Assembly: GCA_963555705.1 (NCBI GenBank)
Contig: OY743173.1
Location: 645,001 to 709,000 of the forward strand
Direction of reading: 5' to 3'
DNA length: 64,000 bases
DNA from: Ligustrum vulgare
Lineage: Eukaryota; Streptophyta; Magnoliopsida; Lamiales; Oleaceae
The notes below the pieces were generated by a model. It was not told the origin of the DNA. It did not search any database and saw only the letters and a list, made by a program, of their open reading frames with translations. Below, piece by piece: positions 3,483-50,883 of the stretch. How positions within the stretch are numbered: position 1 is the stretch's first letter; each line of letters opens with the position of its first letter. The translations under genes were made by a program, and so were the position numbers.

Positions 3483-4718
3483 TTATTCTTTTAGAGGCTT
3501 AAGTCTCATTCCTCTCGATGACTTTGCAACTAACTCTCTATTTAACCCTTTGGTTAGCGGATCCGCAATGTTATCTTTTGACTTTACATAGTCAATCGAG
3601 ATAATTCCAGTTGAGAGTAACTGTCTTATGGTATTATGTCTAGGACGTATGTGTCTAGACTTACCATTGTACATGTTGCTTTGTGCCCTTCCAATCGCAG
3701 ATTGACTATCACAATGTATGCAAATTGCTGGCACAGGTTTTGACCATCTTGGAATATCCTCTAAGAAATTGCGTAGCCATTCAACCTCTTCACCACATTT
3801 ATCTAGAGCTATAAACTCAGATTCCATGGTAGATCTCGCAATAACTGTTTGTTTAGAAGATTTCCATGATATAGCCGCACCTCCTAGTGTGAACACGAAT
3901 CCACTTGTAGACTTTGAGTCTTTAATATCAGATATCCAATTAGCATCAGTATATCCTTCAATAACTGCAGGATATCTGTTATAGTGTAGTCCAAAATCAC
4001 GAGTATATCTCAAGTATCTTAGTACTCTTACTATTCCTTTCCAGTGGTCAGACCCTGGATTACTAATATATCTACTCAGCTTACTAACTGCGTAAGCTAT
4101 ATCTAGTCTTGTACAACTCATTAGGTACATAAGACTTCCGATTATTCTAGAGTACTCTACTTGAAGAATACCATCGCCTCTATTTTTCGATAGATGTTGA
4201 CTTGTATCTATTGGTGTTCTAGCCACGCCAGTATCATCATTATTTAATTTTTCCAAAATCTTGTCCACATAATGTGACTGACTTAGAACAAGTCCATCTG
4301 ATGTTCTTGAAATTTTAGCTCCAAGAATCACATCAGCTAAGCCCATATCCTTCATGTCGAATCTTGAATTCAACATATTTTTAGTAGATTTAATCATCTT
4401 ATCGTTGCTGCCAACGATGAGCATGTCGTCAACATAAAGGCATAAAATGACATAACCATTTTTTGTGTCTTTGATGTAAACGCATTTGTCGCATTCATTG
4501 ATTTTAAATCCACTTTCCATCATTGCTTTGTCAAATTTTTCATGCCATTGTTTTGGTGCTTGTTTCAGGCCATATAATGACTTCACCAATTTACACACCT
4601 TGTTTTCTTGTCCTGGTGCAGAAAACCCCTCAGGTTGTTCCATGTAAATTTCTTCTTCTAAATCTCCATTTAGAAAAGCAGTTTTGACATCCATTTGATG
4701 TACTTCGAGATTGTACAA
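3483..4718 (-). pseudogene. Copia RT (C-terminal part) and RNase H
   Basis: Open frame of 411 codons. RT motifs include [15 protein letters not shown] near the start, YGLKQAP, and the catalytic YVDDM (RT motif C, Tyr-x-Asp-Asp) about residue 115. RNase H follows with [18 protein letters not shown] and the terminal [14 protein letters not shown] typical of plant copia pol ends. It is internal to a polyprotein, so the first Met is not a real start. Upstream sequence to about 4870 still encodes RT (FKRKMKADGT then ARLVIKGY) but contains an in-frame TGA near 4740. This segment alone would be inactive. Confidence 0.9.
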
Positions 4719-4924
4719 AGATGCAATTGCTAATATTAATCAAATGGAAGTTATTCTCGTTACCGGAGAATAAGTGTCAAAGTAGTCAAAGCCTTCTCGT
4801 TGTCGATATCCTTTAATTACAAGTCTCGCCTTGTATATATCAATAGTTCCATCTGCTTTCATTTTTCTTTTGAAAATTCATTTGTAGCCTAGTGGTTTGC
4901 TTCCCGGGGAAGATCAACCAGCTC

Positions 4925-5542
4925 CTATGTATGGTTTTGCAGAATGGAATCTATTTCACTTTTAATTGCCTCTTTCCATTGAGGTCCTTCTGAAGAGTTT
5001 ACAGCTTCTTTGAAACTTTGAGGTTCAGTTTCTAGCATATAGGTCAGAAAATCAGGACCGTAAGATTTTTCTGTCCTTTTACGTTTGCTACGTCTTGGTT
5101 CAACCTCTTGATCCTGACTATTTTCAATCATGGTCTCATGCGTTCGTTTAGAAGAACTTGGTTCTTCTTTGGACTTGTATTCAAAGAACGATGCATTTCT
5201 CGATTCCATTATCGTGTTTTTGTGTATATCAGAAATTTTAGAATCAAACACAAGAAACCGATAAGAACTACTATTATGTGCATATCCAATAAATATGCAA
5301 TCAATAGTTTTTGGTCCTATTTTCACCTTATTTGGTGTAGGTACAACCACTTTGGCAAGACACCCCCACACTCGTAGGTATTTGTAAGAAGGCTTCCTTC
5401 CTTTCAATAACTCGTAAGGGCTCTTTTCTTCTTTCTTTCGAGGTACCTTATTTAAAAGGTAATTAGCTGATAACACAGCTTCCCCCCACATGTTCTGAGG
5501 TAACCCAGAACTTAATAACATTGCATTCATCATTTCTTTCAA
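4925..5542 (-). pseudogene. Copia integrase C-terminal part and integrase-RT linker
   Basis: Open frame of 205 codons. It begins in the integrase region after the catalytic Glu (ANYLLNKVPRKK, then the SPYELLKGRKPSY block) and runs through an acidic/basic linker with EPRRSKRKR toward the RT start (GPQWKEAIKSEIDSI). An in-frame TAA separates it from the preceding integrase segment near 5585, inside the normally conserved block before QQNG. The TAA looks like a point mutation. Confidence 0.85.
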
Positions 5543-5630
5543 TGTTCTATTTTTCCGTTCAGCAACACCATTTTGTTGAGGTGATTAAGGTGCTGTTGTT
5601 TCGTATTTAATTCCGTGTTGTGCACAGAGT

Positions 5631-13124: not shown

Positions 13125-14269
13125 GAATTTTCCAGTGGCCTTGTTACTGCCGTAAGATACCTTTTTACGGCCGTAACTCATTTCCAGTTTTTACACAGAG
13201 GTCTCATTACGGCCGTAATTAGATTTTCACGGCCGTAATTGTTTCTTTGAAATTTTTTTTTCAGAATGTGACTTACGGCCGTAAGTCATACCTTCACGGC
13301 CGTAAGTCTGGTTTTTTCAGAATTTTAAAAGGGGACCCTCGCGCATAACCTCTCTTTGTGTCCCCCTCTCCGTCCACTTTTCTTCCTCGCCATTTCACCA
13401 TTCTCTACCCTGTCAATTTGTTGGCAAGAAGAAGATATTAGGTCTCTCCTTCATCCCATACTTCTCTTGTTTCCACGGTGCAAGGTATGCCTTCCTCAAT
13501 CCTTCTTCTTCCTTTTGGCTTGGGTAATGGTTCTTTACATATATGGACGTTTCGAATTTTTCTCGCCCTTCCAATGATTGTCTGTGCTTTTTGATTATAT
13601 GTTTGTGATTTGGGGCATAGCCTTTCTATGTACTTCTCATCCATACCATTTCCTATACGTATGCACTCTAAGTGTTCGATGAAATGTTGAGGAAATCTTG
13701 AAGTGTTGGTTAGCTTCCAGCTTCAACTCCAATCTCCCTATTATGCTAGTATAAGTGTTTTCACGTCGTGATAGGAGTTCAATGGTGAGGAGAGTTTGGT
13801 GCTTGATCTTGTTAAGGTCTTGGGGTACATTGCATATTCTTCATCACTTGTTATATATGTTTAATGGTTATTTAAGTTCTGTGCTCCACTCTTTAAAACC
13901 CACATTGGCTTCGTTTGTGACTCTACACCTTTGTTTTGGTTTGTCTTATTGGATAGTGTCCCATGGGGTTGACGAATATCGCATGCCTTACACTTGATGT
14001 GTGCCATATAACGAAATCACGTTAGACCCTTGTACTTATGCCATCTTCCGTCATGTGATATGGGGGCATCTACAATTATTTATACACTTCTTCTCAAGAT
14101 TTGGTTCCTTCCATGTCTTGCTTGTGCATTCTGCCTTTCGTGTTGGCATTGTTTTCCGATTTTAGGCTTTAACCGCCACGCACTACTTACTTGCACGCAT
14201 TTTCTTTTACATTCCTATTCAGCTCGACTTAGTCATTCGTATTTTTTTTTTCCTTTTGCAGGATTTTCT
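12936..14269 (+). other. Athila A region between pol and env-position ORF
   Basis: Noncoding. It holds an A-run of about 38 bases at 13082-13119 and three pairs of palindrome copies (about 13148-13305) of the same type as in the LTR. A TTTTAAAAGGGG element follows at 13323-13334, then a pyrimidine-rich leader. Just before the next ORF is a polypyrimidine tract and TTTTGCAG (splice-acceptor-like, ending 14261). Confidence 0.6.
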
Positions 14270-15352
14270 ATGGCTCCACCGGCAAAGAAAGGAAAGCAAG
14301 TGGCAGGGGAATCCTCGGCTGTGCCCCGCCAGGAGAAGACCCAGTCTAAACTGTGTATTAAGGAACGCCTTTTCCTCCCGGAAGACTTTCAGGAATGGAG
14401 GAGCGCTGACACCGTCATTGCCCCGCGACAGTTTTGGGCCCGCTTCGTCGAATTTGGATGGGTCAGATTCGTGAGTGATCTACCGTTTGGGAACCCCCCG
14501 CTGGTGTACAAATTCTACACCCAGTTCAACAAAGAAATTGGTGACGAAGGTTCCCTGGACTATCACCACACTAAAGTTGTGGGGAAGAGAATCAAATTTG
14601 ATAAGGAAGTGGTGGAACACCACTTGGGGTTGAATAGCACTGGATCTGTCCCCATGACTTCGCATGCGGGTGTTTTCTTTCCGGACCAAGAGGTGCTCCG
14701 TTGGGCTTTGAAGCCTGAACTCCATGACTCCCTGAATGTCATCCTCCCGCACTACAAGAATCGGGATCTACAGAGGGACGCCTGGTACCTGCACCAGTGG
14801 GGGTCGGGGAGTCTCTTCCCATCCACTAGCCTCACTACAGTGTCTGTTCGCTACCTCCGGGTCTACTACACCATCACCATGGGAATCAAGTTTGACTTGG
14901 GGCAGCACATCTTTGATACAATTTCCACATACGCCAGCTTGATACCGCAGAAGCGAGGCATGCCATTCCCATGTTTAATCACCGCCTTATGCCGGGCTCA
15001 AAGAGTTCCCGCTGCAGTAAGTGACGACACCTTGGGGCATGGGAATCGCCTCACGAAAGCGAGCTTGGAGAATGCTCGCAGGAAGATCATCGCGAAGCGG
15101 GGTCACGTAGATGATGATTCAGGGGACTCCGATGATGATCCGGGCACCGAGGAGCCCGCAGCACGGGAAGCGCCACAACGGCCAAATGCTCCTACCCCTT
15201 TTGAGCTTCAGATGCTAGGCATGATGCAAGCCTTCCAAACCCAGCTGAACGCTATGCAAGAAGATCAGCAGCTTCTACTGGAGGAGCAGAGGGCCATTCG
15301 GGAACAGATTCGGCAATTGCAGAGAGCTCGAGACGATCAACCTCCACAATAG
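14270..15352 (+). CDS. Athila A env-position ORF (putative plant transposon protein)
   Basis: An intact 360-residue protein beginning MAPPAKKGKQVAGE, with a basic N-terminus. The central domain has FVEFGWVRFVSDLPFGNPPLVY, YKFYTQF and YHHTKVVGKRI-type blocks. I recognise this as the protein family found downstream of pol in many Athila elements. The tail is acidic (DDDSGDSDDDPGTEE) and ends in a Gln/Glu-rich coiled coil (about residues 300-355). There is no signal peptide or transmembrane segment, so envelope function is unlikely. The ATG at 14270 was chosen over the upstream in-frame Met at 14030 because a strong splice-acceptor-like TTTTGCAG ends at 14261 and the extra 80 residues are hydrophobic and unlike the family. 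Function is unknown. Confidence 0.8.
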   Translation: MAPPAKKGKQVAGESSAVPRQEKTQSKLCIKERLFLPEDFQEWRSADTVIAPRQFWARFVEFGWVRFVSDLPFGNPPLVYKFYTQFNKEIGDEGSLDYHHTKVVGKRIKFDKEVVEHHLGLNSTGSVPMTSHAGVFFPDQEVLRWALKPELHDSLNVILPHYKNRDLQRDAWYLHQWGSGSLFPSTSLTTVSVRYLRVYYTITMGIKFDLGQHIFDTISTYASLIPQKRGMPFPCLITALCRAQRVPAAVSDDTLGHGNRLTKASLENARRKIIAKRGHVDDDSGDSDDDPGTEEPAAREAPQRPNAPTPFELQMLGMMQAFQTQLNAMQEDQQLLLEEQRAIREQIRQLQRARDDQPPQ

Positions 15353-21631: not shown

Positions 21632-23312
21632 TGTTAAGTGCATTTTTATACACTTTTTATACCTTTAAATTAGCATTTTTTGGAACATCTTGAGCAAATA
21701 TCTACTAATTTATGCATATTTTATATTTAAATAGGTTAATATCCAAGTTTGAGGCCAAAAACCACAAAAGAAGTGCACATTACGCTGAAATTGGAAGTAT
21801 GGGGACCATTTTGTCACTTTCGAGAAGTTTTGGACAAGCCACGCAATTAACCAAGGGACCAAATTAAAAGATTTCAAAAGTTGAAGGGCCAAAAGTGCAA
21901 TTTTAGAAGGACATGTTTGAAAGAAATCTGAAAATTTGGGGACTAAATTGCTCGAGATTAAAAGATGGAGGACTTGATGGTAATTACGGAAAGGACTTAG
22001 CTGCAAAACCATCATTTGGCTAAACCACGCTTTCACGTGGCTCGAACTAAGTCGCGTTCGCGACTTGGACCTCAAAACGGACCCGAGACAACGTTGCTGC
22101 TGAAATTTACCGGGCGCGATCGCGCGCCTTTAGAAATTAAAAAAAAAAAAAAGGGAAAATTCCGGGCCGGACCGGGTCAACCCGGCCGACCCGATTCGGC
22201 CCATTTTGCTGATTCACGCGGATCTTGCCTTTTTTTTAGGGTTTTGGATGATTTTGGGGGTATTATAAAGAGGAAAAATCAGATTTTTTAGGGCCTCATG
22301 TAAGTTTCTTGCCTCTTTTTCATTTTTCTTGTATTTTCTCTTAACATTTACCTTATTTAATGCAATTTTTAATTAATGTTTTAATGTTCTTGTGTTCTTC
22401 TTCCACATTTCATCTTCTTGTTGTAGTTTAAGTTTTTAATATTTGGTATTTCCTCAAATTTCTACCATAAATGTTATATATTTTAAGTGCATTTAATGTT
22501 TTATGCTTGGGTTGTTGAAGATAATAATGGTTGATGAAGAAATTTGGCTCAAAGTGAAGGGTTCTTGGGTTTTCACTTCAAGAACTTTACAAAAAGGGAG
22601 TTTTCTTTATTATCTTGTTTTTAATCTTTATTTTAAGTATTATTCACATGTTTATGTTATTTGTTAAATGTTGTTGTTAGTTTATTATTAGAGGTTAATA
22701 TTATTGTGTTGGAATTTTAATTAGTTTAAGATTATTTAAGTATTTTAGGTTGTTTTTGGATTGTGGGTATTTATGTTTATGTATTTGTGATTGTGAATGT
22801 TGTTTATGTTTTTTTTGTAGTTTTTAAAATGTTTTTCACTATGTTAGGTTCATATTGGAATTTACTATACATGTTAGGTTAAATTTAATTTTTCCCATGT
22901 AATTTGGTTAAGTAAGTGACTACCACTATTTGATTTGTGAAAGAAGAAATTAGTGTAGTTATAAAAATTAACTTCACCTTGTCTCATGTTTTCTAGTTTA
23001 GTTTAGTCACCAAGTTCTTTCAGTTATTAGGATATTTTGGATAATTAGTTTTAATCCTAACTTTTACATATTGTTGTCTATTTGCTTTAGTTAACTAATT
23101 TATATATTGCCATGTTTCTTTTTTGTATCACTTAGTTAATAATTCACCACCAAACCATATTTTTATGTTACTCGACTTTTCTTTTAAAATGAAATCAATA
23201 ACTTTAATTACAAATCAATCAATCCTCGTGGGTACGATAACCCGGACTTTTCTAGTCCACTTTACTACTTGAACGCGAACCGTGCACTTGCTGTATACGA
23301 GTTAAGCGAACA
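21632..23312 (+). repeat. Athila C 5' LTR
   Basis: This LTR is 1,681 bp. The CpG palindrome cluster is at 22018-22130, including AAGTCGCGTTCGCGACTT. The TATA-like TATTATAAAG is at 22261-22270. In this copy the first palindrome is degraded compared with the 3' LTR. Confidence 0.93.
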
Positions 23313-23444: not shown

Positions 23445-23601
23445 ATGCAACAACGTCCGACTTGGGACATTCTTCCAATTGATCCCGAACCCGAACGAAC
23501 TTTTAGGAGGAGGATTAGGGAAAGAAGAGAACAAGTTGAACAACAAAGAATACAAGGTAATATGGGGGGACAACAACCAAGGTGGTTCCGATCCCGTTAT
23601 T
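23445..23601 (+). pseudogene. Athila C gag, N-terminal segment
   Basis: It encodes MQQRPTWDILPIDPEPERTF and an Arg/Glu-rich helix, resembling the gag start of element A ([12 protein letters not shown]). A frame change near the G6 run at 23565 is needed to join the frame that enters the insertion (GGSDPVI) and continues on the far side at 34036 (DEDDRPMGQF). LARD-2 interrupts it within TTATT. Confidence 0.75.
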
Positions 23602-26600
23602 TATAGCGACCCAGAATTTTTATGCAATAAATAATTATTTTAATATTTAGAAAATTGTGTCGCTACTATTTCATTTATTATTTTGAAGTTAACGCCGCGA
23701 CGAATTCGTCTAGCCAAGTCAAGAAATATCGAATTTGTTCGATTTTAAATTAAAATCCGAATTTCTAAAATTATGTTATTTTAATTATTTATTCAAAGTA
23801 TTATTTTCAAAATCATTTTGAATTCCAAATTTATTAAAATATCTCAATTTTCCTTATTCAAATGTATTTTCAGTCCAAAAACATCATCATTTTGTATAAA
23901 GAATATTACACCATTTTCTATTTCATATTACACCAAATTCTACACTATCTTATTCTCCATTCACAAGCAATACCATCATTATCATCATATAACACGGCAA
24001 GACACAAACCACCATTTCTTTATTTTATCATTCCAATTATGAGTATTCCATTCAATGATTCCTCTTCACATTATTATGTCCTCCATATTGATCACTTTCC
24101 ATCTCATTCCCAATTTCATAATTCATCCTCACCAACCACCTTCACTACCTTATTCAAATACTCTCTACTCCTACGAGATTCAATTTGCACAATTCAAATC
24201 ATGGCACAACCCATATTCCTTTCTATTATTTATTTTGATTCCTCATGTCTCCCCTTTAATCATTTCTTTTTTTTCCTTTTCTTTTCCTTTAAACCACAAC
24301 AAAACCTAATCATTTTATTCTAACACTTTACATCTAATCTAATTCCTACTCAACCTAAAACTCCACCACGGTTTCACCAAACCAACCCATACTCCACTTA
24401 TCACATCATTACCTCCACTTACCTCAATTCCACAATTTCAAAACCAATCTGTATATAATCACCTGCGAAATCGTCATCATCAATCTACAATCAGTTCATA
24501 ACCATCATCCTCAATTCACCAAACAATGCCACTGCAGTCTTCATCTGTACCACCACCCATTTCGTTTCTTCCCGTTTTGATCTCCAAATCAGACAATCAG
24601 CATCATCATCATCAATGTCAAAACCACCGATCGCACACTGCCCTTCAGGTGGACACCCAACCGAATCCCAAACCACCCCTGTACAATTTCAGTTTAGCAT
24701 CCACCCAACTTCATTTCAGGCAATCACTTCAGCTTCATCCATTTTCACTCCCTGTGACTAAATTCAATCCATCACCAGAGTCTCTGATCGTCATCAGCCA
24801 CCTCCATGACTTCCAATTCACAGAGTCACTGCACTACCATTTTATCACTATCAATTCAATCCACCATATTCAGCCACACACAGATCACAACCAAAACCGG
24901 CAATCATCAGTCCAACCACCAGCTCCAAACTGCCTTCCACCAAATCAAATCATCACCGCTACTGCCTAACACTAAGTTCGCACAACCCCATCGCCTCCAC
25001 TGCCCAGTCCCAAATTAACTCCAATTCAGTGCCAAAACCCCAAATCAAAATAAAACCCAAAACCCAGATTAAGCCAAGCCAGTCACTTACCTCAAACCAC
25101 CGCCGGATTATCGCCTAGAAATCGCGACTTTAAGCCTCGTGTTTATCTCTGTTTTCGCTAATCTCGCAACAAATCAGCCCACAACCTGGTCTACTTGCAA
25201 CCTCACCGTTTATTGCAACCAACGCCGGTGAGCCCTGTCGATCGCCGGCTGAATACCCTTGTTTCACCACAGATCGCGACTGGGTCGTGAGTTGAGAGAG
25301 AGAGACAGAGAGTGGTTTTGAGAGAGAGAAGGATAAAATCTGAAATGAATTATTTGATTTTAATATTTTAAGTTTTCGGAAATTACCTTTTAGTCCTCAA
25401 GTTTAAAAGGTTTTCAAATTAGTCCCTATGTTTTCAAAAACTATCATTTCAGTCCTTTAAGTTTTAAATGAGTTTTAATCAGCCCTTTCATTTTCAAAAT
25501 CTATTATTTCAGTCACTGTTGATTTACTTTTAAACCCAAGTTTTAAAAGTATTCATTTTAGTCCCTCAACTTTCAAAGTATCAATTTTAGTCCCTCAACT
25601 TTTCAAAGTATTCATTTTAGTCCCTCAACTTTCAAAACATCAATTTTAGTCCTCAAATTATAATTTATCATTTTGAACTATATATTCGATATACTAAAGT
25701 GACTTATTGGCTAAGACGAAGCGTACGGAGAATTTAAAGAAATTGAAGTCATTCCCGCTCAACTTTGCACTCGTCGGATTTGAGGTAGACTCGCACTTAT
25801 TAATTGATTTAAATTATGATTTCATATGAATGTCATGTGACTTGTGAAAGTCAATTTTTAAGAAAAGCAAGTATGTTGTTATGAAAGGTAAATATACCTT
25901 ATGTTGTTATGAAAAGTAAGTATGTTTTTTATGAAAAGAAAATATACTTTATGTTTTTACGAGAAAAGTAAGTATACCCTATGCTTCACGAAAATGTTTT
26001 TTTGGATCATTGCTATGAAATCAATCTACCAAGATTGTTTTGGGTCCCATATGATAAGTTATGATATGTTAAGGGGACCGGAGTTTTAGTAGCGCTACAC
26101 ATAAGAATTCTTGCCACGAAGTTCGGTAACATTCTTGTGTCTCCTATGTTTATGAGGATTTGCCACGAAGTTCGGTAAAATTCCTGTGTTTCCATATGTT
26201 TATGAGGATTTACCACCTAAGTTCGGTAAAATTCCTGTCGCATATGTTTATGAGGATTTCGATCCTATCTTATGTTATGATGCAATTGATCCCTATGAAT
26301 TTCAAAAATTATGCTTGGTATACTTACTGTGATTTTATTGTTATTATGGTTTTACTGCATAAGAATTCTTGCCACCTAAGTTCGGTAAAGTTCTTGTGTC
26401 TATTTATGTTTATGAGGATTTCAATCATATCTTATGTTATGCTTTCAAAATAAATTATGCTTGGCATAATTAAAATGTTTTTATAAGTATATGGTTTTCA
26501 AAGAGCTGTTTTCAAAGAGCTATTTTCAAAGAGCCTATGATTTGTAAAATATGTCCCGTGCTGTAATGCGCAATATGAGTTTTATCAAGAGCAGTTTTAT

Positions 26601-27078
26601 AAAGAAGCTCTATCAATGCCCGTTTTATAAAGAGCCGGGATTTATGTGTTTAATCATCTTATAAATTAAATTAATTTGCGATGAGTCTACTGAGTATTTC
26701 CCCCATGAAATACTCACCCTACTTTTTAACAGTTTTGCAGATTTCGGAGACGGTGGCGAGCGATGAATGATGGTGGCAATAATCGTTAAACAGTTGAAAG
26801 TTTGACGTTAATGGTTTCCGTATTTTCCAAACAATCGAATAATTTAGAGAAGTTCATTTATTTGAGAAATTATGACATTGGCAATTTCTTTACAATATTA
26901 ATGGTTCGATTTACTATTTCAAATGGTTTCATAAATGTTTTCAATTTTATCGGCCATTACAGTTTATTTAATGTTGCCAAAAATGAATTTCAATTATTTC
27001 TTCCGCAAAAATATTATTCGAAAAATTTAGACAGAAAATGACGTAGTGAATCGGGTATACGGAACTCGGGGCGCTACA
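23602..27078 (+). repeat. LARD-2 5' LTR
   Basis: This LTR is 3,477 bp. It starts TATAGCGACCC (TA instead of the usual TG) and ends GGCGCTACA. It contains a long G-poor stretch (about 23820-25100), a GA-rich block near 25290-25335, and repeated TTTTAGTCCCTCAACTTTC phrases (25380-25650). Four copies of a module containing AAGTTCGGTAA, three in tandem plus one, lie at 26108-26425. ORFs inside are not conserved with any family I know. Confidence 0.95.
26105..26425 (+). repeat. Tandem ~52-bp repeats inside LARD-2 LTR
   Basis: The unit contains GCCACGAAGTTCGGTAA, a CTTGTG or CCTGTG block and ATGTTTATGAGGATTT. Three units are adjacent (about 26110-26260) and a fourth begins near 26360. The same array lies in the 3' LTR at about 33057-33377. 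Confidence 0.8.
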
Positions 27079-27081
27079 AGT

Positions 27082-27093
27082 TGGTATCAGAGC
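27082..27093 (+). other. LARD-2 primer-binding site (tRNA-iMet)
   Basis: TGGTATCAGAGC, four bases after the LTR end. It is the standard initiator-methionine tRNA complement. Confidence 0.95.
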
Positions 27094-27910
27094 TAGTCTG
27101 CGTTTCTGTAGACTGGTAAAATTTTCAAAAAGAATTTTCAAGAAATATTTTCCATTATAAAATTTTATTGATGAAGATTGCCACTGCCATCATTCGTTCC
27201 ACCAACTCCGAGGTAAAGAAGTTTATGATGTTTAAAGTTATTTCAGTATTTCGAATACTCATTTTACTGATTTATGAGAAAGAATGAAGAGTATTTCGGA
27301 TACTTATGATTTATGAGAAATAAGAATGTATTTCTTTGAAAATAATGATGTTGTTATGCTTTGTCATAACTTATATGCTTTAATGTATGATTATGAGAAA
27401 TTTTTTTAAAGAAAGAAAACGAGTGTTGAGCATAATGGGAATAATATGATTTTATTGAGAATTAAGTAATGGATATTATGTTGAGTAAGTGAATTATTTC
27501 CTCTATTTTGAAGAGAAATTTATTATGAAGTTTGGCCTTGTGAATATTTTGGGAATATGATTTATGGCATATATTTATAAGTATGAGTTATCTTTTGAGC
27601 CATTAAGGTATCGAAGGAAGTGATATTGTGATATTGAAAAAAATATAATTTGAAATTGTTATGTTGAGGAATTATGAATTGAATTATGGGATATTTTTGA
27701 TGATATTGAAGTGTTGGAATCGTTTTCAATATTTTAGATCGTTGTGATCAAATGTGGAGTTATTTGTTATTGTGAGTTATGAAGTATGCTTATGTTTTGG
27801 GATAAGTCCAAATTACAAGGGAGACTCTGTTCAGAATTTTATCAATTGGAATTAAGAGCATGATATGATAAGCATCTACTAAAGAATTAAGGTTAGACAT
27901 GCAAGTTCAT
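27094..27910 (+). other. LARD-2 5' leader
   Basis: AT-rich leader shared with bases 11-~840 of this window. No ORF or gag remnant is visible. Similarity between the two copies fades at about 27905-27915, where the antisense cargo begins. Confidence 0.7.
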
Positions 27911-27989
27911 TTACATCACAAACGAGATTTGGTTGATGATAGCAGAGATTTTATTATTTTCTCATAAGGAGAACACACAAGAGTCACAC

Positions 27990-28275
27990 TGGAAAGGAAA
28001 TACATGAAACACATGAAAGCATAAGAGAAAAACATGGAAAGATCCTCAGAATGAGAGATGTGTTTCCGGAGTAGCCGTATCCTACCACCTCTGATCTTTT
28101 GAGGAAATAAAGAAACCTTCAAAGAGGTGTGTTTCGAGAGTAAGAATACTCCGTAATCTACCACCTGGAACCTTTGAGGTACACACAAGATTTAAACATT
28201 AAGGAAATCCTAGTAAATGGAGGGGTGTCTCGAGAGTGAGAATACTCCGTACTCTACCCCCACCTATTCTAAGAT
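27990..28275 (-). repeat. Three diverged repeats downstream of the LOG-like gene
   Basis: On the plus strand the units carry GAGAGTGAGAATACTCCGTA or close variants, followed by a CTACCACCT or CTACCCCCA block (around 28050-28110, 28125-28175 and 28220-28265). The flanks are partly complementary (AGGTG...CACCT), so each could fold. They lie in the 3' untranslated region of the LOG-like gene and could influence 3' end formation or stability. Confidence 0.55.
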
Positions 28276-28929
28276 TCACAGAGTTAAATTTACATTAACC
28301 GGACTCCATTTTCGCTTGATTCCCCTTCCTTGCGACCAATCTATCTTAACCCCTGCTGGATCTTGTATTGAGATATATGACTGCAGCTTATCCAGTAGTT
28401 CATCAATAGTAGGAGCAGAAATAAGAAGCCTTCTGGAAAATGGAGAGATGAATCCCTGTTCCACAGCATAATCAAGAAAGGTTAACAAACCATCAAAGAA
28501 ATTGTTAACATTCAGAAGCCCAATAGGCTTAGTATGGAGATCTAGTTGAGCCCACGAGGTAATGTTAAAGATTTCTTCTAAGGTACCAAAACCTCCGGGC
28601 AGGGCTATAAAGGCATCAGAACCACATAGCATACAAGTTATGCGTTCATGGATGGATAAGGTTTGAACTTCATGCCCTCGTGTTTTGCCTGCAACATCTA
28701 CCAAAGGGACAGGTATGACACCGATTACTTTTGATTTCTCTGCAAGAGCAGATTGGGAAACACAACCCATTAGACCACTGCTACCACCCCCATATACAAG
28801 AGTGATACCTTTTTCCCCCAGTTTCTTTCCAAGATCTACAGCCGCTTCTAGATAACCGAAGCCTTTCCCTACTTTTGATCCACAAAATACACAAATAGTT
28901 TTGATCTGTCGAAGTTTTGGTGCTTCCAT
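28276..28929 (-). CDS. LOG-like: LOG-type cytokinin riboside 5'-monophosphate phosphoribohydrolase
   Basis: An intact 217-residue protein with the LOG/lysine-decarboxylase-like Rossmann fold pattern: ICVFCGSKVGKGFGY at 12-26, LVYGGGSSGLMG at 44-55, and the signature PGGFGTLEE at 111-119. The catalytic-region Arg96 and Met100 lie before DAFIALPGG, and KPIGLLNV is at 134-141. Length matches plant LOGs (about 210-230). Family knowledge: LOG releases free, active cytokinin from its riboside monophosphate in the cytosol in one step. Plant LOG genes normally have several introns; this one has none, suggesting capture from mRNA. It is antisense to the retrotransposon. The region around Arg96 is unusual (HERITCMLCGSD) and may affect activity. 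CTTTAAATAG lies 75 bases upstream (29004-29013). Confidence 0.9.
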   Translation of the reverse strand: MEAPKLRQIKTICVFCGSKVGKGFGYLEAAVDLGKKLGEKGITLVYGGGSSGLMGCVSQSALAEKSKVIGVIPVPLVDVAGKTRGHEVQTLSIHERITCMLCGSDAFIALPGGFGTLEEIFNITSWAQLDLHTKPIGLLNVNNFFDGLLTFLDYAVEQGFISPFSRRLLISAPTIDELLDKLQSYISIQDPAGVKIDWSQGRGIKRKWSPVNVNLTL

Positions 28930-29003
28930 CTTTGATAGTAAAGAAAGGAAAACTTACGAAGAAGATGTGATTTTGGGATGCCTGAACTATGAAATATGTT
29001 TGG

Positions 29004-29013
29004 CTATTTAAAG
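29004..29013 (-). promoter_or_regulatory. TATA-like element upstream of LOG-like gene
   Basis: Minus strand CTTTAAATAG, 75 bases before the start codon. Nearly the same sequence (CTTTTAAATAG) stands upstream of the neighbouring gene. A possible core promoter; inference from sequence only. Confidence 0.4.
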
Positions 29014-29228
29014 CCGGAAAAATTTACTGTTTTTGATTGATTCTGAAAAAGTGAAGATTTACTTTTGACAAAATCAGCCCACTTTTGAATATTTTTATCG
29101 TATCGAGGCTGTCACCTTTCGGCGATTAAATATTTTATTTCCAGCTTTATCAAATCTCGAGAAAGGAAAATATATTTTATTTTCAAAACGCGTGAAAGAA
29201 AGCAGCAAAATATTTTAAAAGATTTACC

Positions 29229-29795
29229 TTATATCATTGCTGAACTGCCAGAAGCCTCATTTTGTAAAACAGACTGGCAAACAGGATCTTTCGATATTAT
29301 ATTTTGGAGACTATAACGATTTTTGTCCTCGTTAAACTGAGCGTATAAGGAGAGAAGTTCACGTTGCACATAACCACTTGGGTGCGTCTCAAGAGTCAGT
29401 CGAATATCATCCAAAGACTCCTTACTCAGTCCACCCTTTATGAATTCGATTTTATCATCCCGATTAGTAGAAGAATATCCTACTGATTTGCAACGAGTAT
29501 CACAGTTCCAACGAGCACATTTGTAGCAACCACCCAGTCTTTTTGCTCTTCGTTTCTTTGCAAACGTGCTTTTGCCTAAACCAGGCATGTGCTTTGGAAA
29601 TGTTGATGGTAATTCACCAGATAGTCGAACCTTTGCTTCTATCAACCAGCGAACATCTTCTGGAATATCATGAGCCATCAGCAACCTCAATCTTTCGAGC
29701 CTTATTCTATAGATCTTTCTCAGATCATTCATAGGAAGACTGGAATAATACTTGCGAATGTTAGAAAGAATGATATCCATTGTTTGATGATTCAA
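29229..29795 (-). CDS. Basic four-cysteine protein resembling viral nucleic-acid-binding / silencing-suppressor proteins
   Basis: 188 residues, intact. The N-terminal half is helical and charged (LRKIYRIRLERLRLL at 25-39). Then GKSTFAKKRRAKR (74-86) gives an Arg/Lys-rich patch immediately before a CX2CX4CX3C cluster (Cys90, 93, 98, 102), then a helical tail (about 120-165). Order, spacing and the GKSTFAKKRRA block resemble the cysteine-rich nucleic-acid-binding proteins (Viral_NABP type) near the 3' end of flexuous plant RNA virus genomes such as vitiviruses and carlaviruses. Several of these suppress RNA silencing. It is longer than most of them. This is not the CCHC knuckle of gag. The first Met is at 29795; Met6 or Met22 could be the real start, since a TATA-like sequence lies only 18 bases upstream of 29795. 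Confidence 0.75.
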   Translation of the reverse strand: MNHQTMDIILSNIRKYYSSLPMNDLRKIYRIRLERLRLLMAHDIPEDVRWLIEAKVRLSGELPSTFPKHMPGLGKSTFAKKRRAKRLGGCYKCARWNCDTRCKSVGYSSTNRDDKIEFIKGGLSKESLDDIRLTLETHPSGYVQRELLSLYAQFNEDKNRYSLQNIISKDPVCQSVLQNEASGSSAMI

Positions 29796-29812
29796 CCTCT
29801 TCTCAGCATGAA

Positions 29813-29823
29813 CTATTTAAAAG
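29813..29823 (-). promoter_or_regulatory. TATA-like element at the four-cysteine protein gene
   Basis: Minus strand CTTTTAAATAG, 18 bases before the first ATG. If it is a true TATA box, transcription would begin past that ATG and use Met6 (29780) or Met22 (29732). It matches the element upstream of the LOG-like gene. Confidence 0.35.
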
Positions 29824-29884
29824 CGCAAAGGATCTGAGTGAATCCGCGTGATGTTGTGACCAGCAAGAAAGCGCAGGATTATTT

Positions 29885-30514
29885 TAATGAAAAGAGGAGA
29901 CAAGAAGTAATGCGCTGTTAAATTTTATCGATAAAGGAGATTTGATTGGAGATTTGGAATATTTTCTTGGATTATGGGTACTGATATTTTGTTTTAATAA
30001 TGATAATCTTGGTATAATGTGATGATACGTGGAAAGTAAAATGAGTACCGTATTGAATCAGAATTCATACGTATATACAAGTGAAAGAAATACTTTGCAG
30101 GAAATGTGGTGACATTTAAGTATAGAATCTTAGTTTTGGGAGATATTTGTTTACTGAATTTTGGGTTACAAATATTGGAAAGATAAGTTGATGATATTAT
30201 GTTGATATGTTTGGGTATATTACGTAGAGAAAATATTCAGGTAATTCTTTGATTATTTTGGGAATTTTCGATGATAAGAAAGGAAAAATTATTATGATAC
30301 GATATGTCAGTAAAGATTTGTTGAAATTTTAGAGATATATACGAATATTTGAGGTCACATGATACGATGATAAGTGACAAGTTACATGAATACTACAAGA
30401 TATGATGAAATTTTTACATACGATTGGGAATTGTTTTGATTATTTTGAGAATATTCGATGATAAGAAGAAGAGATTCTGATTAAGTATTCAGAAATTATA
30501 AGATTAAGTAAGTT
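29885..30514 (+). other. LARD-2 3' internal noncoding region
   Basis: AT-rich. Its first part (to about 30105) matches 1705-1926 of copy 1. No ORF, RNA gene or retroviral domain could be recognised. Confidence 0.6.
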
Positions 30515-30551
30515 TAATTTCGAGGACGAAATTATTTTAAGGAGGTAAGAT
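30515..30551 (+). other. LARD-2 hairpin and polypurine tract
   Basis: TAATTTCG-AGGA-CGAAATTA (30515-30534, 8-bp perfect stem) is followed by AAGGAGGTAAGA (30539-30550) and the LTR. It supplies the plus-strand primer. The AGGA-loop hairpin is the same design as in the Athila elements here. Confidence 0.8.
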
Positions 30552-33500
30552 TATAGCGACCCAGAATTTTTATGCAATAAATAATTATTTTAATATTTAG
30601 AAAATTGTGTCGCTACTATTTCATTTATTATTTTGAAGTTAACGCCGCGACGAATTCGTCTAGCCAAGTCAAGAAATATCGAATTTGTTCGATTTTAAAT
30701 TAAAATCCGAATTTCTAAAATTATGTTATTTTAATTATTTATTCAAAGTATTATTTTCAAAATCATTTTGAATTCCAAATTTATTAAAATATCTCAATTT
30801 TCCTTATTCAAATGTATTTTCAGTCCAAAAACATCATCATTTTGTATAAAGAATATTACACCATTTTCTATTTCATATTACACCAAATTCTACACTATCT
30901 TATTCTCCATTCACAAGCAATACCATCATTATCATCATATAACACGGCAAGACACAAACCACCATTTCTTTATTTTATCATTCCAATTATGAGTATTCCA
31001 TTCAATGATTCCTCTTCACATTAGTATGTCCTCCATATTGATCACTTTCCATCTCATTCCCAATTTCATAATTCATCCTCACCAACCACCTTCACTACCT
31101 TATTCAAATACTCTCTACTCCTACGAGATTCAATTTGCACAATTCAAATCATGGCACAACCCATATTCCTTTCTATTATTTATTTTGATTCCTCATGTCT
31201 CCCCTTTAATCATTTCTTTTTTTTCCTTTTCTTTTCCTTTAAACCACAACAAAACCTAATCATTTTATTCTAACACTTTACATCTAATCTAATTCCTACT
31301 CAACCTAAAACTCCACCACGGTTTCACCAAACCAACCCATGCTCCACTTATCACATCATTACCTCCACTTACCTCAATTCCACAATTTCAAAACCAATCT
31401 GTATATAATCACCTGCGAAATCGTCATCATCAATCTACAATCAGTTCATAACCATCATCCTCAATTCACCAAACAATGCCACTGCAGTCTTCATCTGTAC
31501 CACCACCCATTTCGTTTCTTCCCGTTTTGATCTCCAAATCAGACAATCAGCATCATCATCATCAATGTCAAAACCACCGATCGCACACTGCCCTTCAGGT
31601 GGACACCCAACCGAATCCCAAACCACCCCTGTACAATTTCAGTTTAGCATCCACCCAACTTCATTTCAGGCAATCACTTCAGCTTCATCCATTTTCACTC
31701 CCTGTGACTAAATTCAATCCATCACCAGAGTCTCTGATCGTCATCAGCCACCTCCATGACTTCCAATTCACAGAGTCACTGCACTACCATTTTATCACTA
31801 TCAATTCAATCCACCATATTCAGCCACACACAGATCACAACCAAAACCGGCAATCATCAGTCCAACCACCAGCTCCAAACTGCCTTCCACCAAATCAAAT
31901 CATCACCGCTACTGCCTAACACTAAGTTCGCACAACCCCATCGCCTCCACTGCCCAGTCCCAAATTAACTCCAATTCAGTGCCAAAACCCCAAATCAAAA
32001 TAAAACCCAAAACCCAGATTAAGCCAAGCCAGTCACTTACCTCAAACCACCGCCGGATTATCGCCTAGAAATCGCGACTTTAAGCCTCGTGTTTATCTCT
32101 GTTTTCTCTAATCTCTCAACAAATCAGCCCACAACCTGGTCTACTTGCAACCTCACCGTTTATTGCAACCAACGCCGGTGAGCCCTGTCGATCGCCGGCT
32201 GAATACCCTTGTTTCACCACAGATCGCGACTGGGTCGTGAGTTGAGAGAGAGAGAGACAGAGAGTGGTTTTGAGAGAGAGAAGGATAAAATCTGAAATGA
32301 ATTATTTGATTTTAATATTTTAAGTTTTCGGAAATTACCTTTTAGTCCTCAAGTTTAAAAGGTTTTCAAATTAGTCCCTATGTTTTCAAAAACTATCATT
32401 TCAGTCCTTTAAGTTTTAAATGAGTTTTAATCAGCCCTTTCATTTTCAAAATCTATTATTTCAGTCACTGTTGATTTACTTTTAAACCCAAGTTTTAAAA
32501 GTATTCATTTTAGTCCCTCAACTTTCAAAGTATCAATTTTAGTCCCTCAACTTTTCAAAGTATTCATTTTAGTCCCTCAACTTTCAAAACATCAATTTTA
32601 GTCCTCAAATTATAATTTATCATTTTGAACTATATATTCGATATACTAAAGTGACTTATTGGCTAAGACGAAGCGTACGGAGAATTTAAAGAAATTGAAG
32701 TCATTCCCGCTCAACTTTGCACTCGTCGGATTTGAGGTAGACTCGCACTTATTAATTGATTTAAATTATGATTTCATATGAATGTCATGTGACTTGTGAA
32801 AGTCAATTTTTAAGAAAAGCAAGTATGTTGTTATGAAAGGTAAATATACCTTATGTTGTTATGAAAAGTAAGTATGTTTTTTATGAAAAGAAAATATACT
32901 TTATGTTTTTACGAGAAAAGTAAGTATACCCTATGCTTCACGAAAATGTTTTTCTGGATCATTGCTATGAAATCAATCTACCAAGATTGTTTTGGGTCCC
33001 ATATGATAAGTTATGATATGTTAAGGGGACCGGAGTTTTAGTAGCGCTACACATAAGAATTCTTGCCACGAAGTTCGGTAACATTCTTGTGTCTCCTATG
33101 TTTATGAGGATTTGCCACGAAGTTCGGTAAAATTCCTGTGTTTCCATATGTTTATGAGGATTTACCACCTAAGTTCGGTAAAATTCCTGTCGCATATGTT
33201 TATGAGGATTTCGATCCTATCTTATGTTATGATGCAATTGATCCCTATGAATTTCAAAAATTATGCTTGGTATACTTACTGTGATTTTATTGTTATTATG
33301 GTTTTACTGCATAAGAATTCTTGCCACCTAAGTTCGGTAAAGTTCTTGTGTCTATTTATGTTTATGAGGATTTCAATCCTATCTTATGTTATGCTTTCAA
33401 AAGAAATTATGCTTGGCATAATTAAAATGTTTTTATAAGTATATGGTTTTCAAAGAGCTGTTTTCAAAGAGCTATTTTCAAAGAGCCTATGATTTGTAAA

Positions 33501-34030
33501 ATATGTCCCGTGCTGTAATGCACAATATGAGTTTTATCAAGAGCAGTTTTATAAAGAAGCTCTATCAATGCCCGTTTTATAAAGAGCCGGGATTTATGTG
33601 TTTAATCATCTTATAAATTAAATTAATTTGCGATGAGTCTACTGAGTATTTCCCCCATGAAATACTCACCCTACTTTTTAACAGTTTTGCAGATTTCGGA
33701 GACGGTGGCGAGCGATGAATGATGGTGGCAATAATCGTTAAACAGTTGAAAGTTTGACGTTAATGGTTTCCGTATTTTCCAAACAATCGAATAATTTAGA
33801 GAAGTTCATTTATTTGAGAAATTATGACATTGGCAATTTCTTTACAATATTAATGGTTCGATTTACTATTTCAAATGGTTTCATAAATGTTTTCAATTTT
33901 ATCGGCCATTACAGTTTATTTAATGTTGCCAAAAATGAATTTCAATTATTTCTTCCGCAAAAATATTATTCGAAAAATTTAGACAGAAAATGACGTAGTG
34001 AATCGGGTATACGGAACTCGGGGCGCTACA
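30552..34030 (+). repeat. LARD-2 3' LTR
   Basis: This LTR is 3,479 bp and almost identical to the 5' LTR. Eight substitutions and one extra GA dinucleotide were counted by eye. It starts TATAGCGACCC like its partner, so the TA terminus was present in the parental element. Confidence 0.95.
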
Positions 34031-34035
34031 TTATT

Positions 34036-34904
34036 GATGAAGATGATAGACCAATGGGGCAATTCATGGTCCCTCTCATCACTCGAAATCTAGGAAGCAT
34101 CACATACCCCCATTTGGACGTCCGGACTTTCATCTAAAGCCGGATGTGATAAATCTCTTCAAGGGGCATCTACAATTCTATGAAATGACCGAGGAGAATC
34201 CATTTACTCACATCTCGCGGTTTTTGGAGATGTGTAGTAACTTTGATTATCCGGGAATTAGCAAGGAGGCTATCAACATGCGGTTATTTCCACATACCCT
34301 TAGAGATGGAGCTCGTGAATGGTTGGATGCCAACCCGGTTGGAAGTATTACAACATGGGATGATCTTGCTCAAAAGTTCACTACAAAATACTTTCCTCCA
34401 TCAAAAGTGGCTAAATTGAAGAGTGATATCTCTACATTTCGATAACTTGACACTGAATGTATCTATGAGTCATGGGAAAGATTCAAGGAGATGTTGAGGA
34501 AATGTCCAAATCATGGGTTCACCAAGCAAATGCAAGTTCAATATTTCTATCTTGGGATGAATCCATCTAGTCGAGTGACGGTTGACTCGGCCTCCAATGG
34601 AGCTATCACTACAAAATCACCTAATGAGGCAATTGAGCTCTTTGAGAGGATGGCTAGTCACAATTCTACTTGGCCAACCGACCGCATGGTACCAAAGAGA
34701 GCCGCGAGAATTCATGAAGTTGATGCATATGCGGCTTTATCGGCAAAGATGGACCTTCTATTCAAGAAGTGTGATGATTTGTCTTCTCAACATACGGTAA
34801 AAGCAATCTACCCTCCTATTTCTATTTGTGATGCATGTGGAGCAACACACAAGGTTGAGGAATGTCTCATGTCAAAATGGCTTGTACTTCAAATGAGCAA
34901 GTGA
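34036..34904 (+). pseudogene. Athila C gag (continuation)
   Basis: It continues gag after the LARD-2 insertion: DEDDRPMGQF, then the capsid-like block with NMRLFPHTLRDGAREWL, an in-frame TAA near 34443 (position usually Gln), YESWERFKEMLRKCP and a knuckle CDACGATHKVEEC. The knuckle is CX2CX3HX4C, one residue short of the canonical spacing. A frame change near 34865-34900 leads into the next segment. Confidence 0.85.
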
Positions 34905-49196: not shown

Positions 49197-50883
49197 TGTT
49201 AAGTGCATTTTTATACACTTTTTATACCTTTAAATTAGCATTTTTTGGAACATCTTGAGCAAATATCTACTAATTTATGCATATTTTGTATTTAAATAGG
49301 TTAATATCCAAGTTTGAGGCCAAAAACCACAAAAGAAGTGCAAATTACGCTGAAATTGGAAGTCTGGGGACCATTTTGTCACTTCCGAGAAGTTTTGGAC
49401 AAGCCACGCAATTAACCAAGGGACTAAATTAAAAGATTTCAAAAGTTGAAGGGCCAAAAGTGCAATTTTAGAAGGACATGTTTGAAAGAAATTTGAAAAT
49501 TTGGGGACTAAATTGCTCGAGATTAAAAGATGGAGGACTTGATGGAAATTACGGAAATGACTTAGCTGCAAAACCATCATTTGGCTGAGCCACGCGATCG
49601 CGTGGCTCGAACCAAGTCGCATTCGCGACTTGAACCTCAAAACGGACCCGAGACAACGTTGCTGCGCGCTGTTTACCGCGCGCGATCGCGCGCCTTTAGA
49701 AATTAAAAAAAAAAAAAAAAAAAGGAAAATTCCGGGCCGGACCGGGTCAACCCGGCCGACCCGGTTCGGCCCATTTTGCTGATTCACGCGGATCTTGCCT
49801 TTTTTTTAGGGTTTTGGATGATTTTGGGGGTATTATAAAGAGGAAAAATCAGATTTTTTAGGGCCTCATGTAAGTTTCTTGCCTCTTTTTCATTTTTCTT
49901 GTATTTTCTCTTAACATTTACCTTATTTAATGCAATGTTTAATTAATGTTTTAATGTTCTTGTATTCTTCTTCCACATTTCATCTTCTTGTTGTAGTTTA
50001 AGTTTTTAATATTTGGTATTTCCTCAAATTTCTTCCATAAATGTTATATATTTTAAGTGCATTTAATGTTTTATGCTTGGGTTGTTGAAAATAGTAATGG
50101 TTGATGAAGAAATTTGGCTCAAAGTGAAGGGTTCTTGGGTTTTTACTTCAAGAACTTTACAAAAAGGGGAGTTTTCTTTATTATCTTGTTTTTAATCTTT
50201 ATTTTAAGTATTATTCACATGTTTATGTTATTTGTTAAATATTGTTGTTAGTTTATTATTAGAGGTTAATATTATTGTGTTGGAGTTTTAATTAGTTTAA
50301 GATTATTTAAGTATTTTAGGTTGTTTTTGGATTGTGGGTATTTATGTTTATGTATTTGTGATTGTGAATGTTGTTTATGTTTTTTTTGTAGTTTTTAAAA
50401 TTTTTGTCACTATGTTAGGTTCTTATTGGAATTTACTATACATGTTAGGTTAAATTTAATTTTTCCCATGTAATTTGGTTAAGTAAGTGACTACCACTAT
50501 TTGATTTATAAAAGAAGAAATTAGTGTAGTTATAAAAATTAACTTCACCTTGTCTCATGTTTTCTAGTTTAGTTTAGTCACCAAGTTCTTTTAGTTATTA
50601 GGATATTTTGGATAATTAGTTTTAATCCTAGCTTTTACATATTGATGTCTATTTGTTTTAGTTAACTAGTTTATATATTTCCATGTTTCTTATTTGTATC
50701 ACTTAGTTAATAATTCACCACCGATCCATATTTTTATGTTACTCGACTTTTCTTTTAAAATGAAATCAATAACTTTAATTACAAATCAATCAATCCTCGT
50801 GGGTACGATAACCCGGACTTTTCTAGTCCACTTTACTACTTGAACGCGAATCGTGCACTTGCGGTATACGAGTTAAGCGAACA
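49197..50883 (+). repeat. Athila C 3' LTR
   Basis: This LTR is 1,687 bp. The palindromes are better preserved here than in the 5' LTR: a perfect 22-bp one centred on GCGATCGC at about 49598, AAGTCGCATTCGCGACTT, and GCGCGCGATCGCGCGC at about 49677. The TATA-like box is at 49831-49840. It ends AAGCGAACA. Confidence 0.93.

Follow-up and report, generated by a model that had tools for sequence, protein, structure and literature searches.

What do two intact protein-coding genes do in a retrotransposon in which no gag or pol was found? The question is raised by an element bounded by long terminal repeats (LTRs) at positions 23602-34030 of a 64,000-nucleotide stretch of Ligustrum vulgare DNA (contig OY743173.1; the whole stretch is hereafter called the window), which carries genes for a LOG-type phosphoribohydrolase and for a carlavirus-type nucleic-acid-binding protein (NABP). 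We propose, with moderate confidence, that this is a recently active, non-autonomous long-LTR retrotransposon with a selected two-gene accessory cassette (NABP then LOG), kept because the proteins help the elements to multiply. The pair is present in three LTR families that differ in their LTRs and primer sites and carry it in sense or antisense. The family of the window element (family A) is numerous and young, and relatives of both genes are found in other plants.

Structure and age of the window element

The element has the features of an LTR retrotransposon, namely direct LTRs, a target-site duplication, a primer binding site and a polypurine tract:

23597..23601, no strand: 5' target-site duplication TTATT, read directly
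23602..27078, plus strand: 5' LTR, 3477 bp, ends TATAGCGACCC...GGGGCGCTACA, by self-alignment
27082..27093, plus strand: primer binding site TGGTATCAGAGC, read directly
30539..30550, plus strand: polypurine tract AAGGAGGTAAGA, read directly
30552..34030, plus strand: 3' LTR, 3479 bp, ends TATAGCGACCC...GGGGCGCTACA
34031..34035, no strand: 3' target-site duplication TTATT

The positions of the primer binding site and the purine tract set the sense of the element as the plus strand. The former is presumably of the tRNA-iMet type, and we regard it, together with the context of the polypurine tract, as reminiscent of the Tekay/Del chromovirus lineage. Alignment of the two LTRs over 3477 sites showed 8 substitutions, plus an indel of 2 bp, and the element is presumably ~0.09 million years old at an assumed rate of 1.3e-8 per site and year. 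Both LTRs have TA..CA and not TG..CA termini; the TG...CA form is usual for LTR retrotransposons, not essential, and the accessible part of a study of tomato TARE1 provides a precedent for LTRs starting with TA (PMC3701649). Minisatellites with periods of 29/59 and 49 were observed within the LTRs, at 25537-25663 (and 26111-26259) and at the same places in the 3' LTR. Between copies, alignment in the middle of the LTR fell to 71% or was absent, and the stretches with the interior were 92-99% alike.

The interior of 3.47 kb contains only two long open reading frames (ORFs), those of LOG and NABP, both on the minus strand. Searches by tblastn with 20 window ORFs of at least 130 aa revealed no gag-pol remnant in this element, or in the carriers of families B and C described below, and a very divergent pol could escape this search. 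Nine of these 20 queries were domain-scanned, and together they covered gypsy and copia gag, protease, reverse transcriptase, RNase H and integrase. The gag-pol matches near family C lay outside its LTRs. Judged by gag and pol, the family-A element is not an autonomous LTR retrotransposon. A preliminary description of this locus had pointed to a perfect 5-bp duplication, a very young element with almost identical LTRs, a lack of retroviral proteins and two intact antisense ORFs, and all of these were borne out. The element is apparently nested, with LTR-like repeats of a possible host element at 21632-23312 and 49197-50883; a gag match at 34185 is in the putative surrounding element.

The two antisense genes and their flanks

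The cassette comprises the following features:

28027..29824, minus strand: shared cassette, both genes and their upstream regions, 82% alignable to the family-B element by blastn
28041..28260, no strand: imperfect ~40-bp repeats downstream of LOG, seen by eye and also conserved in copies L031 and L029 of family B
28276..28929, minus strand: LOG-type phosphoribohydrolase ORF, 217 aa, motifs PGGFGTLEE and IHER
29004..29012, minus strand: TATA-like TTTAAATAG, 75 bp upstream of the LOG ATG
29229..29780, minus strand: NABP ORF, 183 aa, with C-x2-C-x4-C-x3-C behind a basic stretch
29813..29821, minus strand: TATA-like TTTAAATAG, 33 bp upstream of the NABP ATG, also in L031 and L029

The phosphoribohydrolase identity proposed in the preliminary description was confirmed by Pfam PF03641 (E 1.7e-33), and the best solved relative was Arabidopsis At2g37210 (PDB 2a33; E 2e-57), which reads PGGYGTLEE and MHQRK at the places of the two window motifs. 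We take the motif Arg and the final Glu to be the catalytic residues of LOG. The window protein has both PGGxGTxxE and the upstream Arg; among the matches listed, PGGxGTxxE was found in 107/120 LOG relatives, and 89 of these 107 also had the upstream Arg motif.

The second protein had been described as basic, four-cysteine and virus-like, and this description also held: it was matched by PF05515 (E 1.5e-7; 32 bits against a Pfam cut-off of 23) and PF01623 (E 6.3e-6; 26.5 against 20.9). The two profiles also matched 26/29 and 25/29 aligned NABP members, respectively, and the finger was retained in 106/120 NABP relatives among the matches listed. Residues beyond ~120 are outside the profile match, yet are conserved among the plant relatives. 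A PDB search with NABP gave four matches, all at chance level, and a search of a phage collection was unproductive. These virus-family profiles would suit a cassette left behind by the integration of a betaflexivirus-like RNA virus in which both genes were already present. We consider such an origin very unlikely, as no further long ORF stands beside the pair, none of 49 pattern matches to NABP in IMG/VR was confirmed as a viral relative (this collection may hold few plant RNA viruses), and the LOGs were nearer to plant than to bacterial LOGs in a small tree.

The core of the TATA-like site on the LOG side was present in 24/26 family-A copies and in the family-B copy L031, and was altered in L029. 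The site on the NABP side was compared in the window element, L031 and L029. Before the LOG of the family-C copy C1, which has a 64-bp spacer, no TATA-like site was seen. The arrangement of these motifs suggests that in families A and B each antisense gene may be driven by a TATA-type promoter of its own. The ~40-bp repeats downstream of LOG are possible terminator or regulatory repeats.

The same pair in three LTR families

NABP and LOG were found in the same order in three LTR families of this genome, and the possibility that the pair is limited to one family was rejected by families B and C. Family A has LTRs of ~3.48 kb and an antisense cassette. The element of family B (C8, L032 and L031) measures 6.16 kb and has identical 234-bp LTRs, the duplication GAATG, the primer-site sequence CGTTATCAGCACGAGTCTC, the purine tract AAGGGGGAG and again an antisense cassette. 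Family C (C23, L035 and L036) carries the cassette in sense between LTRs of ~1.74 kb, which differ by 9 substitutions in 1735 sites and have the ends TGATAAGTGTG...GCGAACA. Its duplication is ATAAC, as judged by eye, and its primer-site sequence TTTTTGGCGCCGTTGCCGGGG differs from that of family A. We take this sequence to be Athila-like. Repeats of 552 bp at C1 (L030/L033) were considered as LTRs and rejected, as comparison with C23 indicated that C1 is rearranged and that the LTRs are ~1.74 kb long.

A single 49-bp match (77.6%, E 5e-5) was all that the LTRs of families A and B had in common; between A and C, no LTR similarity was detected at E 1e-3, and the alignment was limited to the two genes. 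By these comparisons, family C stands apart from A and B in its LTRs and primer site as well as in the orientation of its cassette. It is an old family: at 72% identity or more, 48 NABP copies were found, of which 11/48 were stop-free. The NABP of C1 scored slightly below one Pfam cut-off (20.4 vs 20.9), and two ORFs in L029 and L033 had no Pfam match.

These data also bear on whether the two proteins could be structural helpers, with NABP replacing the nucleocapsid and marking element RNA for packaging into the particles of another element, and LOG acting as a nucleotide-binding or dimeric scaffold and not as a cytokinin enzyme. The lack of a gag match in the three carriers, the basic zinc-finger family to which NABP belongs, and the LOG of C1, which retained its profile match (PF03641, E 9.7e-27) despite its lost catalytic motif, are in line with this. 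However, the antisense orientation in A and B means that the protein is not made from genomic RNA, the LOGs of these two families retain PGGFGTLEE and the Arg, and the same motifs prevail among the LOG relatives counted above; thus, we find this explanation unlikely.

Purifying selection on both ORFs

Polymorphism within family A was analyzed in 22 distinct copies. Variable sites at the first, second and third codon positions numbered 3/7/20 in LOG (218 of each position) and 9/9/20 in NABP (184 of each), and the spacer had 22 variable sites in 299. Silent, replacement and stop changes were 21:17:0 in NABP and 22:8:1 in LOG, giving ratios to the neutral expectation of 0.28 (p 1e-4) and 0.14 (p 3e-7), respectively. 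When only variants common to several copies were counted, the silent-to-replacement numbers were 11:6 for NABP and 10:0 for LOG. Between family A and two B copies, dN/dS was 0.13 and 0.17 for NABP and 0.14 and 0.06 for LOG, at dS of 0.32-0.91; between the two B copies it was 0.23 (NABP) and 0.19 (LOG), and between A and the C1 copy of family C 0.13 (NABP) and 0.24 (LOG), with dS >1 and poorly measured. Both ORFs are under purifying selection.

The preliminary description had left room for a one-off capture evolving neutrally, and this was rejected by the recurrence of the pair and by the low dN/dS. Simple gene capture by transduction, after which the element multiplied with the ORFs as passengers, is similarly largely refuted, and we give it hardly any credence. 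Plant LTR elements are known to capture genes, according to the accessible part of PMC7264820, and the few stop-free NABP copies of the old family C would agree with it; on the other side stand the dN/dS of 0.06-0.17 between A and B, the absence of a shared LOG replacement change within A, and the fact that the pair recurs in three LTR families and in other genera.

Copies of family A in the genome

In the 1.385-Gb assembly (51 contigs), the 1505-bp pair was found in at least 40 full-length copies at 99-100% identity (3127 first-look candidates), so that, together with families B and C, the element is not the only carrier of both ORFs. NABP itself gave at least 150 copies at 99-100% identity, and all of the best 150 were stop-free; the 8797 first-look candidates of that search are word matches, not counted copies. 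With P0001 as the query, at least 150 copies were obtained, 148 of the best 150 being stop-free. On contig C11, inspected by eye, 17 P0001 places and 9 NABP-query places did not overlap.

Twenty family-A loci were fetched, yielding 26 full pairs including that of the window, after two partial copies were dropped. The NABP ORF was intact in 26/26 and the LOG ORF in 25/26. In 20/20 loci, a stretch of 2.7 kb or more was repeated in direct orientation with 98.4-100% identity, although at array copies this repeat may take in interior, and this identity indicates that the sampled family A is young. Tandem arrays of interior-LTR-interior units were also observed (e.g., C12:34534080-34548043 and C6:28003425-28024579), and a same-strand neighbor lay at 3.5-9 kb for 24/52 first rows of the NABP copy search.

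Relatives in other plants

The NABP search returned 345 proteins, of which 120 were listed; named sources among the matches listed were Orobanche hederae, O. gracilis, O. minor, Striga, Populus, Acer and Xanthoceras, and the nearest of these named relatives belong to Lamiales. Three Orobanche proteins (P0012, P0018 and P0019) are gene models that fuse NABP and LOG. The LOG search returned 7227 proteins, and many of the 120 listed came from Reevesia, where host and element LOGs were indistinguishable. NABP and LOG matches from other records coincided on contigs of length 8723, 4511 and 2128. For coincidences >2 kb, 0.17 were expected by chance and at most 2 were seen over 400 offsets; taken together, the eight coincidences were no more than the maximum of the offset controls (8; mean 2.7), and therefore only the long ones count. 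Many matches of the relatives are on short ENA contigs, which would fit transcripts.

The NABP tree contained 90/125 rows; unnamed rows were left out if they were short, and after P0060 every second one was also omitted. Families A and B, Striga and Orobanche fell in one clade (96), Acer and Xanthoceras were paired (93), and the Populus rows were in one 19-row clade (97). Family C was elsewhere, its placement unsupported, and 36/87 inner forks were open. The LOG tree comprised 45 rows with few host LOGs. Here the LOGs of A, B and C grouped within a clade of 39 rows (97), to which two Arabidopsis and three Xanthoceras rows did not belong.

This conservation between named plants of several orders, and the grouping of named NABP rows by host relationship, would also be expected if selection acted on a benefit to the host, such as antiviral interference or growth control. 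The high copy number, the youth of copies in two element types of different structure and the decay of the old family point instead to selection at the level of the element, and a host-serving cassette is, in our view, quite unlikely.

Comparison with known elements

LARD elements (large retrotransposon derivatives) have long LTRs and a non-coding interior without gag-pol, and are mobilised in trans. Family A shares the long LTRs, an interior of ~3.5 kb and the lack of a gag-pol match, but its interior consists of two conserved coding genes, and the other carriers have LTRs of 234 bp or 1.74 kb. The cysteine-rich proteins of carlaviruses (PF01623, PF05515) have been reported to block small-RNA silencing or change host transcription; they have a zinc finger and an adjacent basic stretch, as in the element NABP, which, unlike them, is ~180 aa long and resides in plant-genome LTR elements.

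The YgdH domain of the LOG family is said to have been placed in Citrus and Populus elements by Steinbauerova in 2011, in agreement with the later paper citing that work. In the accessible part of PMC9289625, it is an extra gene in Citrus Ty3/gypsy consensuses and, without a filter, in Populus trichocarpa; thus, the statement in the preliminary description that neither ORF belongs to a known retrotransposon lineage has to be corrected for LOG. No report of NABP or of the NABP-LOG pair in LTR elements was found in mostly open literature judged by titles, abstract openings and the papers cited here. The Citrus and Populus elements are like ours in having a LOG-family domain as an extra gene of plant LTR retrotransposons; they were found via consensuses bearing reverse transcriptase, whereas no gag-pol was found here, and that part of the account mentions no NABP, pairing, orientation or selection, whereas here LOG accompanies a viral-type NABP in three LTR families (PMC9289625). 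The same source describes Phalaenopsis Ty3/gypsy elements with an AlkB demethylase ORF, a host-type enzyme retained by an LTR element and with parallels in RNA viruses; these are, however, Ogre-related, contain gag-pol, and encode a different enzyme with activity shown in vitro (PMC9289625).

Conserved antisense accessory ORFs with a suspected regulatory role are, as here, present in Grande, RIRE2, Retand and PvRetro13 (accessible parts of PMC7264820 and PMC11963269). Those ORFs are TRP28, SMC-like or of unknown type and lie between pol and the 3' LTR, unlike LOG and NABP, which were not found among the antisense ORFs treated in these parts; antisense ORFs of plant LTR elements are stated there to have no virus similarity (PMC7264820). 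By the Pfam assignments of both ORFs, the window element lacks the antisense TRP28 ORF between pol and the 3' LTR that defines Retand. No mention of YgdH or antisense was found in the accessible part of PMC6317226. LOG in LTR elements is, by itself, an already known oddity; what is new, as far as the literature searched goes, is that LOG has a viral-type partner, that the pairing is fixed and that the pair occurs in three LTR families.

The proposed accessory cassette

In the explanation that we favor, autonomous elements would supply gag-pol in trans, and recombination or template switching would have carried the cassette from one element family to another. It would be kept for the help that its proteins give to element multiplication. 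By analogy with the carlavirus proteins, NABP would most likely block small-RNA silencing or change host transcription, and LOG, where its active site is intact, may provide more free cytokinin in the cells that make new copies.

Several observations weigh against this explanation. Silencing suppression is taken from virus relatives only. The view that the cassette is the sole homology between A and B was rejected, given the 49-bp LTR match and a weak collinear tail upstream of NABP, which extends to ~30086 in short pieces of 71-87% (best E 2.6e-7); A and B may instead represent an older shared interior with exchanged LTRs. The family-C LOGs (C1, L030; C23, L035) read IHES and PGDFGTLEQ, with the presumed catalytic Arg and Glu lost, which makes it improbable that LOG serves hormone activation in all families; LOG may also act non-enzymatically, or C may have decayed because it lost the function. 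The NABP of C23 has lost finger cysteines, and the LOG of L029, one of the two B copies, contains two stops. Values of dN/dS between B and C exceeded those between A and C (NABP 0.18-0.27, LOG 0.30-0.34; dS >1, poorly measured), and two C copies differed neutrally, with ratios of 0.92 and 2.05 on 9 and 8 changes, as is expected after insertion. The copy samples were the best-scored ones and hence biased towards intact copies, and since many copies are in tandem arrays, part of the copy number reflects recombination and not transposition.

More tentatively, and with a probability that we put well short of even, NABP-LOG could be a mobile module traded among unrelated families since before the asterid-rosid split, over 100 million years ago, in which a protein related to virus suppressors and a hormone maker open dividing, silencing-relaxed cells to retrotransposition. 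NABP would then descend from an RNA-virus silencing suppressor or be its ancestor, and the module would correspond in plants to the accessory genes of retroviruses.

If the accessory-cassette explanation is correct, parasitic plant DNA carries a selected pair of a virus-type nucleic-acid-binding protein and a hormone-activating enzyme, the success of a retrotransposon would be linked to cytokinin and silencing, and the role of extra ORFs in LTR elements would be directly testable with two short, intact genes. For annotation, some eudicot genes named 'LOGL10' or 'hypothetical' may be element genes.

Other elements in the window

Remains of a derivative element without NABP or LOG were observed at 1-825 and 1707-1934. 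It shares the 5' interior of the family-A element of the window (96% to 27084-27910; 76% to 29885-30103), and at 1707-1934 it resembles both A and B. Adjoining it at the left end of the window are a copia-type reverse transcriptase ORF (3486-4739, minus strand, 418 aa, PF07727, E 2.8e-54) and a retroviral SH3-like stretch (4928-5584, minus strand). Farther along, a 446-aa ORF at 14012-15349 (plus strand) matched Transposase_32, a putative plant transposon protein (PF20167, E 2.3e-20).

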